The notes beneath the pieces were generated by a model. The model was not told the DNA's origin and searched no databases. It saw only the letters and a program-made list of their open reading frames with translations. The position numbers were made by a program, and so were the translations under genes. Positions 27,098-45,541 of a stretch of 45,541 nt of DNA are shown piece by piece; positions within the stretch are counted from its first letter, which is position 1, and each line of letters begins with the position of its first letter. The stretch covers positions 1 through 45,541 of the forward strand of contig JAGMDF010000075.1 in the NCBI GenBank assembly GCA_023128825.1, read 5' to 3'. Source of the DNA: Caldifarciminota bacterium. Lineage in GTDB: Bacteria > Hydrothermota > Tepidihabitantia > B3-TA06.

Positions 27098-28369
27098 CTA
27101 CCCAAGTCGGTCAAACAAAAGCGCCAAAGATTCGATCTGATGATCTACACCACCGGACTTATACTTTATTGATAGAGATTCGCGAATGGCATGGCAAATA
27201 TCGACAATTGCTCTTTTGAAAGCAAAGTCTCTTACAATCCCCCCATGCTTCATGTAAAGCCTATCTTGACGTGCTTTACTCGGACTCTCCCCTGAGTACG
27301 AAAGCTGAATGATCACATCTCCATCTCGCTTAGCAAAAGAGTAAACATTAGGATAAACCTCCCTAAGCAGTAAAAGAGGAAATCCCAAAAATACGTCTGA
27401 CTTCTGAGTCTCCTCAACCCTAGAGAGTAGAGCGATCATTCTTTCAATGGCACGAAGAACTCTTCTAGGATTACCAATCGTCTGAGAATCATAGATTTTG
27501 CTCCAGCATTTCCCTATCGCTTTGTCTAGTTCCTCCGGGATATCCTCTTGGATAAACGCCCGATATTTAGCCTTAATAAACTCCTGAAACTGTTTACTGC
27601 TAGGCAAGGGAATCCTGTGCATCCTATCGATTAACTTTTCGAGATACCAATGTCCATCTATATTAACATCTTTTCCAAAGCATGCTGTAATTGCATCTGA
27701 TACGACTTCATCGTCTAAAGCAACAACGAAGATTACCTCGTTGCTATTGAAGAATAACCTAAGTTTCTCTAATAGATCGAGAGCTTGATCTGGAAGACAT
27801 CTATCAAGGTCATCCAGAAGAATAACCGCATAGCTTCCCTCCTTTTTACCCCTCAACTCCAACCCCTTTTTTATCAACTCCCCAAATTTATTGCGCACTT
27901 CATCCTTAGTTCGCTTCCAAATCTTACGTATTTCTTTTACCGGGAGACGTGCATTTAAGTTCGCTCCCCCAGGTATTCCAACACCTACTGACACCGAAGA
28001 GATAAGCTCCAACAATGTATCCAGAAGTTTTTCGCTTACCTTAGAGCTTAGCCCGAAGTGCTCCGCGACTTCCGAAACCAAAGCGGCTGAAAGGTCAATC
28101 CGCCCCGAAAACTTCAATAACTCAATTGGGCCCACGACTTCAAATTCGTTAGAGTCTCCGATTTCATTCTTCACACATTTGAGGAAGCTCGTTTTACCTG
28201 TCCCCCACTCGCCTGTGAGGCCAATCACGTATGGCGGATCGGTGGCCCTTAACTCTTCTACAAATTGCGGGACAAGTTTATCAAAACCCAGCAAGTCGTT
28301 TTTGATATCGTCAATCGGTTCGTGCCGCTTGAAGCGGATAGTTGGTTTAAGTTCTTCGGCTTCGGTCAT
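27098..28369 (-). CDS. KAP-family P-loop NTPase
   Basis: VIGLTGEWGTGKTSFL (Walker A), YAVILLDDLDRCLPDQALDLLEKLRLFF (Walker B plus KAP signature). Confidence 0.88.
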   Translation of the reverse strand: MTEAEELKPTIRFKRHEPIDDIKNDLLGFDKLVPQFVEELRATDPPYVIGLTGEWGTGKTSFLKCVKNEIGDSNEFEVVGPIELLKFSGRIDLSAALVSEVAEHFGLSSKVSEKLLDTLLELISSVSVGVGIPGGANLNARLPVKEIRKIWKRTKDEVRNKFGELIKKGLELRGKKEGSYAVILLDDLDRCLPDQALDLLEKLRLFFNSNEVIFVVALDDEVVSDAITACFGKDVNIDGHWYLEKLIDRMHRIPLPSSKQFQEFIKAKYRAFIQEDIPEELDKAIGKCWSKIYDSQTIGNPRRVLRAIERMIALLSRVEETQKSDVFLGFPLLLLREVYPNVYSFAKRDGDVIIQLSYSGESPSKARQDRLYMKHGGIVRDFAFKRAIVDICHAIRESLSIKYKSGGVDHQIESLALLFDRLG

Positions 28370-34332: not shown

Positions 34333-35721
34333 ATGGCTGAAGCTTTGGAGAAACTTAGCGCTCCGTTGGGAGTGTTGATCCAGAACGGCATGTTCACGCC
34401 GTCGCAGATAGTCAGAGAGCTTGACCGCTACATCATCGGCCAGGACGCGGCCAAGCGCGCGGTGGCCATAGCCTTACGCAACCGCTGGCGCCGACAAAGG
34501 GTCAAGGGTCCCTTGCGTAACGAGATATATCCAAACAACATCATGATGATCGGCCCAACCGGGGTGGGCAAGACCGAGATCGCCCGCCGACTTGCACAGC
34601 TGGCCCAGGCACCGTTCGTCAAGGTCGAGGCGTCCAAGTTCACCGAGGTAGGATACGTTGGCCGGGACGTTGAGTCCATGATCCGCGAGCTTGTCGAGAT
34701 CTCGGTCAAGATGGCGAGGGAGGAGCAGACCTTAAGTGTTCAGGCAAAGGCAGAAGAGCACGCACGGGAGAAACTGGTTGACCTTCTCTTACCCGGCATG
34801 CCCCCGCCCAGTGAAGGGGAACCCGATAACCGCGCCGAGACACGCGCCAAGCTCAGAAGGATGCTGGACGCCGGCAAGCTGGACGAACGCACGGTGGAAA
34901 TCCACACCTCACGTGAACCGGCAGGGCTGTTCGACCTCTTCCGCATGAGCGGCATGGACGAGGTCAACGTTGAGCTTCAGGATATGCTTCAAAACGCTTT
35001 GCCGCGCAAGCAAAAGGCGCGCAAAGCAACCGTAAAGGAGTCCCTGCGGATACTGACCCAGGAGGAGGCGGCCAAGCTTGTGGATATGGAGGAGGTAACC
35101 CGGCTGGCAAAGGAACGCGCAGAGAACTCCGGGATCGTGTTCGTAGACGAGATAGACAAGATCGCGGTGGGCGAGGGAACCGGCGGCGGTCATGGCCCTG
35201 ACGTATCGCGCGAAGGGGTGCAGCGCGACCTTCTGCCAATCATTGAAGGCTGCAACGTATCAACCAAATACGGGCTGGTTCGCACCGATCATATCCTGTT
35301 CATCGGCGCGGGCGCGTTCCACAAAACCAAGCCCTCGGACCTGATACCCGAGCTTCAGGGTCGCATGCCCATAAGGGTGGAGCTTGACTCGTTGACCAAA
35401 CAGGATTTCGAGCGCATACTTACCGAGCCGGAGACGGCGCTCGTGAAGCAGTACCAGGCGCTGGTGGAGACCGAAAACGTCAGGCTCTCGTTCACCAAAG
35501 ACGGAATAGCGGCGGTTGCCGAGATCGCTGCGCTGGTCAACGAACGTTCCGAAAACATAGGCGCGCGCAGGCTTCATACGGTGATGACCACCTTATTGGA
35601 GGATTACCTTTTCAACCTTCCTGAGTCGGGCGAGCGGGCGATTAAGATCACCGGCAAGGCCGTTCGCGCCAAGCTCGACGCCATCGTCGCCGACGAAGAC
35701 CTCAGCCAGTACATACTGTAA
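34333..35721 (+). CDS. hslU: HslUV protease ATPase subunit HslU
   Basis: [63 protein letters not shown], conserved C-terminus DEDLSQYIL. Internal ATG 34390 is an alternative start. Confidence 0.95.
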
Positions 35722-35724
35722 GAC

Positions 35725-36453
35725 TCAATACTTCTGAGTCGAAGGCTGAACTCTATAGCATTGGATTACAAGCATCTTGGGATTCCGAACGTATGTGAAA
35801 CGGCTATTCCTTAAGTCACACAAATCAGAAAATTTGTACCCTTTTGTAAAGTCGAAGAGGATATAATACCCCCTCCTGAGTCGTGGACGATCGTTAATAT
35901 AATCCACAAGTTGTTTAATACCTACATTTGGGTCAAAGTTCCCGCTGTTCTTCACTTCAACTACGATCTCTACTTTCTTTGCGATTAGTATGTCAACAAA
36001 GCCACGGCCAGAGGGGATTTCTTTGTAGGCATAAATGCCATGACCCTGACAAAACCAAACGATTGAATTAAAGACAAACCCTCGGGTAATGTCTTCCCTT
36101 TGTCGCCCCTTATTCCAGATCAACCGATAGTGGTCTCGTGGAAGTTGGTAGTACAATTTGGTAAAGAAGTCGTCAAATAAACCTTTTAATTCCGACTTAG
36201 CTATCGTGGTTATTTCCTTAAGGTAGGGGTAAACGCCTTCCGCGAATTGTCTCCGACTGATGCCATTTACTAAGAAGAAAGGATTGTTCCCCTGAACTGT
36301 TTTCTCTAAGTTCGCGAGCGTGAGTTTGTTCTCCCGTATTAATCCTGCAACGCTTTCCGCAAATGGAATTTTGAATGCTGAATCCGCCTTTAGGTCATTC
36401 TCTGATAAGTAATCGGTGAGTTTAACTAAGACCTGTCCTACTATATCAACCAT
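35725..36453 (-). CDS. PD-(D/E)XK nuclease-like protein in wHTH operon
   Basis: GFVDILIAKKVEIVVEVKNSGNFDPNVGIKQLVDYI fits D-x10-ExK plus QxxxY of the PD-(D/E)XK superfamily. Confidence 0.65.
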   Translation of the reverse strand: MVDIVGQVLVKLTDYLSENDLKADSAFKIPFAESVAGLIRENKLTLANLEKTVQGNNPFFLVNGISRRQFAEGVYPYLKEITTIAKSELKGLFDDFFTKLYYQLPRDHYRLIWNKGRQREDITRGFVFNSIVWFCQGHGIYAYKEIPSGRGFVDILIAKKVEIVVEVKNSGNFDPNVGIKQLVDYINDRPRLRRGYYILFDFTKGYKFSDLCDLRNSRFTYVRNPKMLVIQCYRVQPSTQKY

Positions 36454-36826
36454 TGGCCCCCAAATTAAACTGTGTTTTTAGGTATCGGGAGATTCTTAGA
36501 ATCTTCTCAAACTGGTTTTTAGAGTAAATCGCATTCCTTCCAGATGATCTTCGATCAACCAATCCCTCTTTCCAGAGTAACGAGAGTCCAGAAGAGACAT
36601 CCTGTTTGTGCATATTCAGATCGCTAGTCAATTGGTCAAGAGTTCGTTTCCCGTCCACCGCTAGATAAATCCTTGCCAAGTTTCTGCTATTACCGAAGAC
36701 GGCATAGGCATTTTCGCGGGCTTTTGGAGTTGCGGACAACATGAATCCGAGTTTGTGATTTATTTCTTCCACCCTGGCTCTAATCTCAAGAATCTGATCC
36801 TGAGTTATTCTATCGGGCTCATCCAT
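36446..36826 (-). CDS. Small winged-HTH protein (third in operon)
   Basis: RIYLAVDGKRTLDQLTSDLNMHKQDVSSGLSLLWKEGLVDRR; SD GGAGGA; overlaps the nuclease start by 8 nt. Confidence 0.65.
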   Translation of the reverse strand: MDEPDRITQDQILEIRARVEEINHKLGFMLSATPKARENAYAVFGNSRNLARIYLAVDGKRTLDQLTSDLNMHKQDVSSGLSLLWKEGLVDRRSSGRNAIYSKNQFEKILRISRYLKTQFNLGANG

Positions 36827-36828
36827 AC

Positions 36829-37176
36829 TTATTCCTCCGCTTTAACCTCTCCCTTGCTGCTGGGAATTTCGGGCACCTCTATTCCCATTTCTTCGAGAGA
36901 GAACACTTTACGTTTCTTACGGCCCTTGAGTTCCTCTATCAGCCCTTGTTGTTCCCAAGCTTTCCACCATCCGGATATCGTAGCAATCGACACTCCAGTC
37001 GCTTCTGCAATTTCCTTAACACCGTTCTTACCATCAGTCATATGGTAAGCTAAAAGCTTTTTCTCGTCGTCAAGAACAGCACGCAACACTTCCTTAACGT
37101 GGGGTATGGCTTGAATCTTAGTCCACTTCAAAATCTCGGCCAAAAGAGCCCGCTCGTCCATGTCTTCATAAGGCAT
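36829..37176 (-). CDS. Small winged-HTH protein (second in operon)
   Basis: LLAYHMTDGKNGVKEIAEATGVSIATISGWWKAWEQQGLIEELKGRKKRKVF; SD GGAGG. Confidence 0.7.
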   Translation of the reverse strand: MPYEDMDERALLAEILKWTKIQAIPHVKEVLRAVLDDEKKLLAYHMTDGKNGVKEIAEATGVSIATISGWWKAWEQQGLIEELKGRKKRKVFSLEEMGIEVPEIPSSKGEVKAEE

Positions 37177-37178
37177 TC

Positions 37179-37508
37179 TTACCTCCAATCAATGTCGTAC
37201 CTTTTTACGGCGTTTCCATCTTTTCCATCAATCAGGTTTTCGTCCTTCAACTTCTTGATCAATCGACTGACACCGCTACCAACCATTTCTGTTGCTTCCG
37301 CTATTTGAGTTTGATTTTTTGCCCCATCAAGCATATCGTATACTTTTCGGCGCTTGGGGATGCTAGCTTTAGGGCCTTCCTCTAAAAGTTCCTTGATTCT
37401 CGTTTTTTCACCTTCTATCGCCTTTTGCAAAGCGACCTTATGGACCAGTTTTAAGGTACGATGAAGTTCTCTGACTTCATTTAGGAGTTCTTCGTTTATG
37501 TCAGGCAT
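37179..37508 (-). CDS. Small winged-HTH protein (first in operon)
   Basis: KVYDMLDGAKNQTQIAEATEMVGSGVSRLIKKLKDENLIDGKDGNAVKRYDI; aaggaggttaactATG. Confidence 0.7.
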   Translation of the reverse strand: MPDINEELLNEVRELHRTLKLVHKVALQKAIEGEKTRIKELLEEGPKASIPKRRKVYDMLDGAKNQTQIAEATEMVGSGVSRLIKKLKDENLIDGKDGNAVKRYDIDWR

Positions 37509-37559
37509 AGTTAACCTCCTTGTTAAACATTTGCCATAGTTCACTTACTCACACAATTA

Positions 37560-37587
37560 ATTATAGTGAAAAACAAGCCCCTGTCAA
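37560..37587 (-). promoter_or_regulatory. Consensus promoter TTGACA-N16-TATAAT of the wHTH/nuclease operon
   Basis: tgtcaa 37582-37587, attata 37560-37565. Confidence 0.75.
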
Positions 37588-37722: not shown

Positions 37723-37748
37723 AAAAACAGGTGGCATTCGGCCACCTG
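37723..37748 (-). terminator. Orphan intrinsic terminator (minus strand)
   Basis: caggtggc-cgaat-gccacctg-TTTTT on the minus strand; no protein gene immediately upstream. Confidence 0.7.
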
Positions 37749-37878
37749 GTAATTGTTCTTCTTGTGTTAAATATTACCCGCCGGCGAGGGCTTGGAGTTT
37801 GGTCTGGGCGCATAATAACGCCAGCTACCTTTACTACCCGGATAACGCAAAAATACCCCAAAATCACCCCGAAATGTC

Positions 37879-37916
37879 CAGCTTTTGACCACCTTTTGAC
37901 CACCTTTTGACCAGCT
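37879..37916. repeat. Tandem repeat (agcttttgacc)(accttttgacc)(accttttgacc)
   Basis: Three near-identical 11-nt units. Confidence 0.75.
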
Positions 37917-37971
37917 TAATTGTGCCGAGTTCGATGTAAACCTGACCGGATTTGCACGGAAAAGGCAGGGC

Positions 37972-41735: not shown

Positions 41736-42713
41736 CTACTGTTCGGTTTCTTCGATAACTTTGACTAAATCCTTCTCAGTAATCTGAACTGTTTTAAGTT
41801 TTCCCTCCTTGGAAGCAGTCGCCTCAATGGGATAAATATCTATTGTGAGCATGAAAATGGTTTTTCCGTTATAAACCACGAAGGGCGTTGATTGTTCTTG
41901 GTGGGATAAAACCAACTTTAAATCAGAATTAGATGTGTTGAAAATAATCAAGTACCCAAACGGTTCACTGTAATCTCTAGTATATCGATATATCTGAGTG
42001 AAACCCTTGGCGATGTAGCTTTTTTTATTTGGAGCGTTGAAAATCTTAACATCTGCTATCAACGGATCATCGCTCTTCTGGGCAGCAACCAAATCAGCTT
42101 CTCCAGATATAGACTGCGGTTCTATTGAAAAATCCAGACCTTGGTCATGCAAGTATTCGTAAAGATGCATCGCTAGAAGTCTCTCCCCCTTCTGAGTATT
42201 GTTCTTCCATAATTCAAACAGTTTGTCCCGTTGAAACCACTCGCACTTATGCTTGTACTTTCTTAAGAGTGCCAGGATTGCGCGTTGGTCATCAAGTTGT
42301 TCGTCAAGATAATCATATAGGGGTTCCACAAAAAGGGACTTGAAAAGGTCTGAGGCGTTAGAAAGTGAGTTTTCTAAAGAGTATATTAAACCTGCATTTA
42401 TTTCTGAATCTTTCGAAGACCTCTCGATACACCCTTTTAAAACAAGATATGATAACGCCACTAGCCCTTTCTCATCTTCTGGGTAGAACGGACCAGAAAG
42501 ATTGCCTGTGGGTATATTAATAGCAGGCCCTTGTATCTCTTCAGGTATATTATGTTCAATTTTCTCTAGAATTCCAAGAAAAATGGAGTTGCTGTTGATG
42601 TAGCCCCAGAATTGTTGGACAACTGCATGAAGTACTTGAGAGTCAGCACCATTAACCCTGCGCATCCGTTTTTGTAGCTTGTATCGCAAATTCTGTACAT
42701 AGTTTGGATCCAT
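41736..42713 (-). CDS. PD-(D/E)XK nuclease-like hypothetical protein
   Basis: SIEPQSISGEADLVAAQKSDDPLIADVKIFNAPNKKSYIAKGFTQIYRYTRDY fits E/D...DxK...QxxxY; helical N-terminal region. Confidence 0.6.
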   Translation of the reverse strand: MDPNYVQNLRYKLQKRMRRVNGADSQVLHAVVQQFWGYINSNSIFLGILEKIEHNIPEEIQGPAINIPTGNLSGPFYPEDEKGLVALSYLVLKGCIERSSKDSEINAGLIYSLENSLSNASDLFKSLFVEPLYDYLDEQLDDQRAILALLRKYKHKCEWFQRDKLFELWKNNTQKGERLLAMHLYEYLHDQGLDFSIEPQSISGEADLVAAQKSDDPLIADVKIFNAPNKKSYIAKGFTQIYRYTRDYSEPFGYLIIFNTSNSDLKLVLSHQEQSTPFVVYNGKTIFMLTIDIYPIEATASKEGKLKTVQITEKDLVKVIEETEQ

Positions 42714-42721
42714 AAACCCTC

Positions 42722-42952
42722 CTAGAAGTTTATGCTTATTTCAAAATTTTTGGTTAGATTCTTTATGGCTTCCCTTACCCTTCTACTTTCCTTTCGATAT
42801 TCGTTCAAGTAATCATCCAGTTGGATATTTGATTTACATCCTCTACAGATAACAACATCCCTGACTTTTACTTGCTTGAGGAATATATCATTGTAGAAGC
42901 CACATCGAGGACATGGCACATCAATGGATAATCTATCCAAACTAAACATCAT
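42722..42952 (-). CDS. Small zinc-ribbon protein
   Basis: DVPCPRCGFYNDIFLKQVKVRDVVICRGCKSNIQL: two CxxC knuckles; 8 nt upstream of the nuclease-like gene. Confidence 0.65.
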   Translation of the reverse strand: MMFSLDRLSIDVPCPRCGFYNDIFLKQVKVRDVVICRGCKSNIQLDDYLNEYRKESRRVREAIKNLTKNFEISINF

Positions 42953-43003
42953 CTTTCCAATTAAGAAGTCATCCTAAACCACATTCTTGTCAACTCCCTC
43001 CCG

Positions 43004-43066
43004 TGGAGCGCGGGTTCTCTAACCCGCGCAAATATTATTGAACGGACTGGAGAGTCCGTTCTCCAT
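43004..43066. repeat. Direct repeat copy 2 (uninterrupted), two hairpins downstream of the RM gene
   Basis: gcgcgggttctctaacccgcgc hairpin, then gaacggact-ggag-agtccgttc hairpin. Confidence 0.8.
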
Positions 43067-43070
43067 ACCC

Positions 43071-45541
43071 TCATTTCACCCCCTCCACTATCTTAATCTC
43101 CTCCTCGCTCAGGTCGTAGAGCTCGTACACCAGCTTATCAATCTCCGAGTTGGTGTAGTCAATCTGGCGTTGCAGGCGTTTCTTGGTATCCGGGACTTTG
43201 GCTTGGGCCAGCTTTTTGTTCAAATCAAGCATCCGCTCCACCAGCTTTACCATCGTGTCGTGGCGCTTCTTATCCTCAGGGTCGTCAAAGTCAATGGTGC
43301 GAATGGGGAGGGGTTTTAGGTTTACGACCTTTACTTGTGCAAAGGTTCTTCCACTTTCCTTTACACGTTCGACATATAGGAAATTCAGCAACTTAGAATT
43401 GTATATTCCGAGGAAATATTTGAGTGAGAATAAAGGCTCCTTCAAATGAATAACATGAGTGCTATCTAAAGTCAGGTATTTCTCTGTGTCTATTGTAGCT
43501 CGTAACCGATCACTTGTTTGGCGACTTATCAACTTTCCTGAAACCTTAAACATTTGGGGATTAGTATTACTCCAGAGCTTTTCAGGTGCATAGAATACAT
43601 AATGACCGCCGAACTCTAAAAAATATCGGTCTATATCGCGCCCTCGGATTACTTTTTCCCACTTCTTACCTGTTGGTGTAGTCGAAAGAAACTGTTTGTT
43701 ATCCCCAGTGATTATACCTTGATAGACGGTGCAAATGCTACCTAAAGGAACACATGGTTTTTGCTTAATTCTATCGAGCAATGCTATAACTTTGGGGTTC
43801 ATTAGAAGGTTAAACTGGGGGGCTTTTAAGAATATTTCTCTGTTGGCGATGGTTGTTTCGGGAGTATTAAACACCTGATATGAATTTGCAGTTTCAACAA
43901 CTGCCTTCCGAATCCTCTTATTCGGTGTAAAGACAAAAATGCCACTTCCACCTAGCTCTGCTTTCGGGAATACTTTGTATCTCAGATCCACAATTCTAGA
44001 AAGACTACCTTCTTCTATCATTAACTTCCTGAGGTCTTGGAAATAAAAACTAGTAAAGAATAAATTAGGGATGATAAAAGAAAACTCTCCCTTGGGTGTA
44101 AGCAGCTTGATACATTTTTCCATAAATAATCCGAAGAGGTTCATTTTATACTGAGCCGCATGTGGATATTTATTGCTGTAATATGAGATTATCTCTTTGT
44201 CTTCAGATTCCTGTTTTCTTCCGAGGAGTAAGCTCCGGTACGGCGGATTCCCTATCACTGCGTCGAAGCCGCCCGCATCCATGATGTCCTTGAACTCAAC
44301 CTCCCAGTCAAAGGCGTTGATGCGGTACTGCGCCTCATCGTCGAACATGTCGGCCTGCTTACCTTGGTAGAAATCCAAGCCGATCAGCGAGTTGCCGCAC
44401 TTTATGTTCGAGCCCAGGTCGGGCAGCGCCCGCTGGTGGAATATCGCAAGCTGGCGCTTCAACGTCTCCTCACTCTCGCCCTCCAGCACCTTTAAGAGCA
44501 GCGAAAGCTTGGTGACCTCCACCGCCTGCAGGTCTATGTCCACCCCGTAGATGTTATTTAATAGTATCCGCTTGCGCTCCTCGGTCGAAAGCCGCCACTC
44601 CCGCTCCGTTACCTGATAAAGCTGCTTGCGGTGCTTTTCCGGCCCATCTTCGATGTAGTAGTCGCGGTGCCAGTCCAAAAGATACTGGTAAGCACCCAAA
44701 AGGAACGACCCCGACCCGCACGCCGGGTCAAGTATCCTGAGCTTTGCCGCCTGAGCAGGCGTCTTGCCCTTGCACAGCTTGCCCACCGTGTTGGAAACGA
44801 TATAGTCAACTATGTAGGTTGGAGTGTAGTAGACCCCGCCCGCCTTGCGAACCTCAGGCTTTTCTTCAACCTTTGCATAGTGCGCCTTAGTAAGCCGGAT
44901 GACCTTGCCCAGGAACTGCTCGTACACCTGGCCCAGGATGTCGGCAGGCAGAACCGAGAACTCGTAAGGGCTGTCCGGGTAGTAAATGTCCTTGATGATG
45001 CGCTTGAGCTTGTCGTTATCTATTGTAAGATTCAGGGTGAGATCATCGGGCGGCTCTTCCCTGCCCTTCTCTTTCTTGAAGTGGAACAGCCCGGAGTTGT
45101 AGCGGTCGTCGGCATCGCGGAATAACTGGGTGAGACGCTTGTAGATATTAGCTCCGTTCATGATTGACTGGAGCCTTCCATACCCCTCGATTCCCCGGTC
45201 CTCGCAGATTCGCAGGAAGATGATACGGTCAATGGTCTTCTGTACAGCGAAGTTCAGTTGACGGGTGGAGAGCTTGGGATTACGGAGGGCGATGTTCCGG
45301 GCAAGCTCGTCGCGCCACTGCTCTATCTCGGCCAGGAAAGCATCGTCTACCTCGGCGGTGCCTCGCTTCAGTTTGGTCGATTCAACATATTTGTCGAACG
45401 AACCCTTGAGCACCGCATCCTTGGAGAAGATGGAGGCGATTTCATCCCAGCGGTCGATGTAGTCCTTGTATTCGATATAGAGGATACGGGCTGTTGACGC
45501 CTTGTCGGTCTGCACCGGCTTGATGCGACAGTCGTAGACCG
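43071..45541 (-). CDS. Type IIG restriction-modification enzyme/Eco57I-like N6-adenine DNA methyltransferase (5' end beyond window)
   Basis: LDPACGSGSFLLGAYQYLL (motif I), FDAVIGNPPYRSLL (motif IV NPPY), TRD-like C-terminal region; frame stays open to the window edge (VYDCRIKPVQTDKAST...). Confidence 0.9.
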   Translation of the reverse strand, partial: VYDCRIKPVQTDKASTARILYIEYKDYIDRWDEIASIFSKDAVLKGSFDKYVESTKLKRGTAEVDDAFLAEIEQWRDELARNIALRNPKLSTRQLNFAVQKTIDRIIFLRICEDRGIEGYGRLQSIMNGANIYKRLTQLFRDADDRYNSGLFHFKKEKGREEPPDDLTLNLTIDNDKLKRIIKDIYYPDSPYEFSVLPADILGQVYEQFLGKVIRLTKAHYAKVEEKPEVRKAGGVYYTPTYIVDYIVSNTVGKLCKGKTPAQAAKLRILDPACGSGSFLLGAYQYLLDWHRDYYIEDGPEKHRKQLYQVTEREWRLSTEERKRILLNNIYGVDIDLQAVEVTKLSLLLKVLEGESEETLKRQLAIFHQRALPDLGSNIKCGNSLIGLDFYQGKQADMFDDEAQYRINAFDWEVEFKDIMDAGGFDAVIGNPPYRSLLLGRKQESEDKEIISYYSNKYPHAAQYKMNLFGLFMEKCIKLLTPKGEFSFIIPNLFFTSFYFQDLRKLMIEEGSLSRIVDLRYKVFPKAELGGSGIFVFTPNKRIRKAVVETANSYQVFNTPETTIANREIFLKAPQFNLLMNPKVIALLDRIKQKPCVPLGSICTVYQGIITGDNKQFLSTTPTGKKWEKVIRGRDIDRYFLEFGGHYVFYAPEKLWSNTNPQMFKVSGKLISRQTSDRLRATIDTEKYLTLDSTHVIHLKEPLFSLKYFLGIYNSKLLNFLYVERVKESGRTFAQVKVVNLKPLPIRTIDFDDPEDKKRHDTMVKLVERMLDLNKKLAQAKVPDTKKRLQRQIDYTNSEIDKLVYELYDLSEEEIKIVEGVK

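Follow-up and report, generated by a model that had tools for sequence, protein, structure and literature searches.

A stretch of 45,541 nucleotides from an uncultured WOR-3 bacterium (hereafter the window) carries a four-gene minus-strand operon, here confirmed as A-B-C-D, in which three small wHTH proteins precede a PD-(D/E)XK nuclease, and relatives of one of these wHTH proteins lie beside HEPN_Swt1 proteins at three other loci. That one wHTH family is paired with two nuclease types unrelated to each other is suggestive and forms the central new point of this analysis; across the four loci, what appears to recur is a unit of small wHTH protein(s) and an exchangeable nuclease. The initial annotation had proposed a system made up of three wHTH paralogs and one nuclease. 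As a conserved unit this did not hold, since the wHTH homologs of the B family adjoin HEPN_Swt1 genes elsewhere, D is without close relatives in the collections searched and C is not clearly a close paralog, so that the fixed four-gene unit is not conserved. The complete set was found in one genome only, and co-conservation of A, B and C with D therefore cannot be shown. If right, the association would link HEPN and PD-(D/E)XK effectors to one small-wHTH partner family, and such modules could be found by their regulators rather than by their nucleases.

The operon and its proteins

Gene A (37179-37508, minus strand) encodes a 109-aa wHTH protein with a long N-terminal helix-like region, B (36829-37176, minus strand) a 115-aa wHTH protein of a rare family with members also beside HEPN_Swt1 genes, C (36446-36826, minus strand) a diverged wHTH protein of 126 aa, and D (35725-36453, minus strand) the 242-aa PD-(D/E)XK nuclease. 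As originally described, the four genes are tightly packed, with 2 nt between A and B, 2 nt between B and C and an 8-nt overlap of C with D, and they stand behind a perfect sigma-70-type promoter, TTGACA-16-TATAAT (37587-37560, minus strand), with 12/12 consensus matches and a 16-nt spacer. Each gene had also been given its own Shine-Dalgarno sequence; such a sequence does lie ahead of every ATG and is clear for A, B and C, but that of D is weaker (TTTGGGGGCCAATGG). Upstream of the promoter, a terminator-like hairpin (37728-37748, minus strand) would insulate the cassette from minus-strand transcription arriving from upstream. Only weak imperfect repeats lie near the promoter, and no clear palindrome that could be an operator overlaps it; neither an Rfam family nor a tRNA was found at the cassette site.

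A, B and C each score as wHTH proteins against HTH profiles of Pfam and NCBIfam, mostly below the curated cut-offs: A matches MarR_2 (5e-5), B matches HTH_28 (5e-8) and C matches HTH_metalloreg (2e-7, under that model's cut-off). Throughout, the E-values of weak profile matches are rough. The structural model of B, built on an eight-sequence alignment that joins it to A, C and five proteins encoded at other loci, shows one long helix (8-34) and a wHTH domain with a pLDDT of 80, and its nearest structures in the PDB are ArsR/MarR-like regulators (E 0.002-0.03). Profiles and model thus agree with the wHTH identity first assigned to these proteins. Matches to CasR/Csa3 in PADLOC were rejected as generic HTH similarity because only the HTH part of the longer CARF proteins is covered.

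The description of A, B and C as three tandem paralogs survives in part. Two-sequence BLAST gave E-values of 6e-5 for A-B, 0.004 for B-C and 0.012 for A-C, and leave-one-out profiles scored B at 86 bits, A at 35 and C at 20, compared with 22-32 bits for the generic ArsR-type wHTHs of the phylum against a similar profile. These scores argue moderately for tandem paralogy of A and B only. B groups clearly with four proteins from the other loci (L053a, L053b, L054b and L085a), which A joins more weakly; C is a wHTH protein that scores no higher against them than generic ArsR-type regulators do. The ArsR-like matches of the phylum to the wHTH profile were themselves set aside as generic regulators in unrelated contexts. 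Single-protein searches of IMG/VR, plasmids and 61 genomes returned no relatives of C.

The last gene of the operon had been read as a PD-(D/E)XK nuclease bearing D-x10-ExK and QxxxY; the latter is present (Q181xxxY185), but the spacing of the former is x11 (D154-x11-E166-V-K168). Written as a regular expression, this motif is matched by 4 of 200,000 shuffles of D and, among 774 real ORFs, by D alone. The motif was already known when this expression and the nuclease profile described below were chosen, so that the shuffle counts gauge the rarity of the pattern and are not a blind test. D has no significant sequence match in Pfam, NCBIfam or the PDB. Close relatives were absent from 390 genomes and from four other collections, and single-protein searches with D of genome contigs, IMG/VR, plasmids and phages returned no relatives. 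One credible distant relative was found in the 390 genomes; this protein of 535 aa combines an AAA_35 ATPase with a PDDEXK_9-like domain at its C-terminus, and D is 28% identical to it over 148 aa (two-sequence E 3e-8). The relative itself matches PDDEXK_9 only weakly (0.016). Relatives spanning at least 80% of the 535-aa protein are carried on 15 plasmid records, and a profile of ten C-terminal domains, those of the 535-aa protein and of nine plasmid proteins, scored D at 26.5-27 bits and shuffles of D at 7.5 bits at most. With 2,359 ORFs as background, D ranked first, directly behind the profile's own members, and its E120, D154, E166, K168, Q181 and Y185 align with conserved profile columns. 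Taken together, the profile score, the identity and the aligned catalytic residues argue with good confidence for D as a PD-(D/E)XK nuclease, in keeping with the original reading: its predicted core is homologous to the nuclease domains of the AAA_35 proteins and the catalytic residues are kept.

The AAA_35 ATPase-PD-(D/E)XK fusions, which give weak matches to PDC-S01/S27, therefore resemble D in their homologous nuclease core and catalytic pattern. Unlike them, D is without an ATPase, the place of which is occupied by an N-terminal region of about 110 residues, and its partners are separate wHTH proteins. The helical N-terminal half of D is unlike any family searched, and an AlphaFold model of D built from its sequence alone reached a pLDDT of 40, too low to be usable. 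Weak in-phylum matches to D (E 5e-4 to 5e-3) were taken as chance; the best of them falls in what reads, by sequence, as a succinyl-CoA synthetase-type gene, and the majority of the remainder share query range and ORF size.

The slot after hslU and its surroundings

The left edge of the site is the core gene hslU (34333-35721, plus strand), which is convergent with D at a stop-to-stop distance of 3 nt, and the right edge is a remnant of a TPR/PorV-like gene, 39 nt of its 3' end (37773-37811, minus strand). Past the cassette, the window continues with this remnant, a dispersed repeat and a MutL-like gene. In two other genomes (G001 and G002), a TPR/PorV-like gene, its function read from sequence, lies next to hslU on the opposite strand; a full copy was not found elsewhere in the window's own genome, which is about 91% complete. 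The cassette had been described as wedged between hslU and the MutL-like gene, which is right as regards hslU, but the MutL-like gene was brought beside the cassette by a rearrangement, the TPR/PorV-like gene being the native neighbour.

In G001 the same slot is occupied by a 334-aa + PIN cassette; its counterpart in G002 is a PIN cassette that has decayed, and in G005 the slot is near-empty, with no more than a short intergenic stretch. On contig C45 of G004 a full hslU is followed by a DUF6932 gene (nucleotidyltransferase-like; PDC-M63A 1.6e-14) and a gene for a 337-aa protein. Contig C25 of G004 (L030 1-3700) carries a 3' fragment of hslU, a 751-aa gene, a 3' remnant of the TPR gene and a transposase-like ORF of 205 aa; it starts only 127 nt ahead of the hslU match, so that a chimeric contig is possible. 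The window and C25 have the right-hand junction in common, the TPR remnant being followed by GGGCGCATAATAA, and the cassettes between differ, which is what exchange within one slot would leave. The cassette has a GC of 0.42-0.47 and a GC3 of 0.42-0.49, compared with 0.57-0.59 and 0.72-0.74 in hslU and mutL, indicating that it is foreign. Composition and variable slot agree with the accessory status originally proposed and, if this is right, the space after hslU would be a cassette slot in this WOR-3 genus.

The dispersed repeat (37849-37919) consists of three GGTCAAAAG-type units and then GGACATTTCGGGGTGATTTTGGGG, and has no Rfam match. With the DNA of the intergenic region and the cassette as query, 34 matches were obtained in this genome and 31-51 in five related genomes; almost all of them fall on this repeat.

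Besides the cassette, two AT-rich islands lie in the window. One, between core genes, holds a KAP P-loop NTPase (27098-28369, minus strand) matching PDC-S20 at 7e-31 and also PifA and QatA in PADLOC; the other (41736-45515) holds a protein of 325 aa (41736-42713, minus strand) that has a PD-(D/E)XK-like core and scores 20.8 bits against the nuclease profile used for D, beside a type IIG restriction-modification protein (43071-45515, minus strand; PADLOC 4e-157). The window is, by these matches, rich in defence-like genes, which speaks for the setting of the cassette and not for its function. The defence or toxin-antitoxin (TA)-like context expected by the initial annotation is found both in these islands and in the sharing of the slot with other cassettes.

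Partners of the B family and possible functions

Outside the window, the B family is rare, being found in 2 of 390 genomes, both WOR-3 (G031 and G001), and on one Nanoarchaeota contig. A 245-aa HEPN_Swt1 protein is flanked by two B-family genes in G031, two wHTH genes are followed by that of a 277-aa HEPN_Swt1 protein in G001, and a B-like gene overlaps that of a 252-aa HEPN protein on the Nanoarchaeota contig. The partners in G031 and G001 match PF18731 in Pfam at about 1e-10, the R-x4-H motif is present in all three, and all match PDC-M34B in PADLOC (7e-51, 2e-36 and 2e-24, respectively). No HEPN_Swt1 protein is present in the cassette, nor was one found in the window's genome at its completeness of about 91%. 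The wHTH homologs found elsewhere, whose occurrence without the nuclease had been foreseen as a counterargument, do have a nuclease-type effector beside them, but it is HEPN_Swt1 and not of the D type. A second cluster in G031 (L053 4488-5845, minus strand), with HTH-like proteins of 74 and 84 aa followed by a 320-aa protein, was set aside because it is unrelated to the B family and the larger protein has no nuclease-profile match; relatives of this 320-aa protein occur on Rhodococcus and Gordonia plasmids.

We lean, at slightly better than even, towards the cassette being a horizontally acquired TA-like or abortive-infection-type module. The wHTH proteins would associate via their N-terminal helices and bind their own operon promoter, which they may repress, and/or nuclease D. 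D would stay silent in this state; once the wHTH proteins are titrated or destroyed by invading DNA or stress, it would cut nucleic acid, with DNA as the probable substrate, and so stop either the invader or the cell. The nuclease would be the swappable part of a 'wHTH + nuclease' module. The observed basis of this reading is the arrangement of the operon, with one promoter, the wHTH genes first and the overlapping nuclease gene last, together with the foreign composition, the variable slot in which sister genomes carry other TA- or defence-like cassettes, and the pairing of B-family proteins with HEPN elsewhere. The HEPN pairings suggest a wHTH part that partners dangerous nucleases in general and is not a targeting subunit dedicated to one DNase, and it is this association with HEPN elsewhere that makes a TA-like or abortive module preferable to a targeting device or a purely selfish addiction cassette. 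However, the wHTH proteins could be plain autoregulators, which would count against it.

Directed DNA restriction, in which a hetero-oligomer of the three wHTH proteins recognises invading DNA, delivers D and spares the chromosome, would account for three different wHTH proteins sharing one operon with a PD-(D/E)XK nuclease; D's relatives fuse the nuclease domain to an AAA ATPase, making a directing partner plausible, and restriction-modification genes lie 5 kb away. We nevertheless consider it unlikely, since the cassette is without a methylase or other self/non-self discriminator, the wHTH trio itself is not conserved, and related wHTH genes adjoin HEPN proteins, which are typically RNases, so that aiming a DNase is not necessarily the task of the wHTH part. 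A plain type II TA-like selfish cassette, with D as toxin and one or more wHTH proteins as antitoxin and autorepressor, would be kept by addiction with no role in defence. The order of the genes, regulators first and then an overlapping nuclease gene, fits such a cassette, as do the TA-type PIN and nucleotidyltransferase modules in the same slot of sister genomes, but three regulators exceed the need of typical TA pairs and defence-like islands cluster in the window, leaving this reading improbable as well. That the cassette is a remnant of a mobile element, or consists of ordinary regulators by chance beside a solitary nuclease, agrees with its presence in one genome only and with the dispersed repeat and rearrangement at its border; it is nonetheless very unlikely given four intact, closely packed ORFs behind one consensus promoter, the intact catalytic residues of D and the recurrence elsewhere of the B family with a nuclease-type effector.

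A broader proposal is possible though rather doubtful: the loci may represent undescribed, horizontally spreading conflict modules of bacteria and DPANN archaea, in which sets of small helix+wHTH proteins would be interchangeable sensors or inhibitors for swappable nucleases (HEPN RNase or PD-(D/E)XK), the trio in the window acting as a composite sensor.

Relation to known systems

No named system matches all four genes, as the initial annotation had stated, and the literature searched held no description of the combination of three wHTH proteins with a PD-(D/E)XK nuclease. The cassette resembles type II TA modules with DNA-binding antitoxins in its regulators upstream of an overlapping nuclease gene and in the PIN and DUF6932-type cassettes of its slot, but differs from typical ones in having three regulators. 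The HEPN_Swt1 proteins that are the effector partners of B-family wHTH proteins at the three other loci belong to the Abi2/Swt1 group of the HEPN superfamily (PMC3710099).

These wHTH + HEPN relatives fall beside the PADLOC candidate PDC-M34, which consists of M34A, a 215-aa protein that is probably of wHTH type, and M34B, a HEPN_Swt1 RNase. In both PDC-M34 and the cassette, small protein(s) of DNA-binding type are encoded immediately ahead of a nuclease effector; the cassette differs in that its nuclease is of the PD-(D/E)XK type, not HEPN, and in its three wHTH genes, none of whose products matches the PDC-M34A profiles. PDC-M34 is known here by its PADLOC profile names, no description of it having been found in the literature searched. 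PDC families are computational candidates, most of which await experimental validation according to an archaeal survey (PMC12988326). If the association reported here is right, it suggests that candidates such as PDC-M34 belong to a wider mix-and-match set. The PDC-M34 pair itself (M34A + M34B) is present in the same phylum (G046, L090), and a further HEPN_Swt1 cassette of the genus is found in G002 (L089 1483-2869, minus strand), where a 191-aa protein is followed by a HEPN_Swt1 protein matching PDC-M34B at 3e-44.
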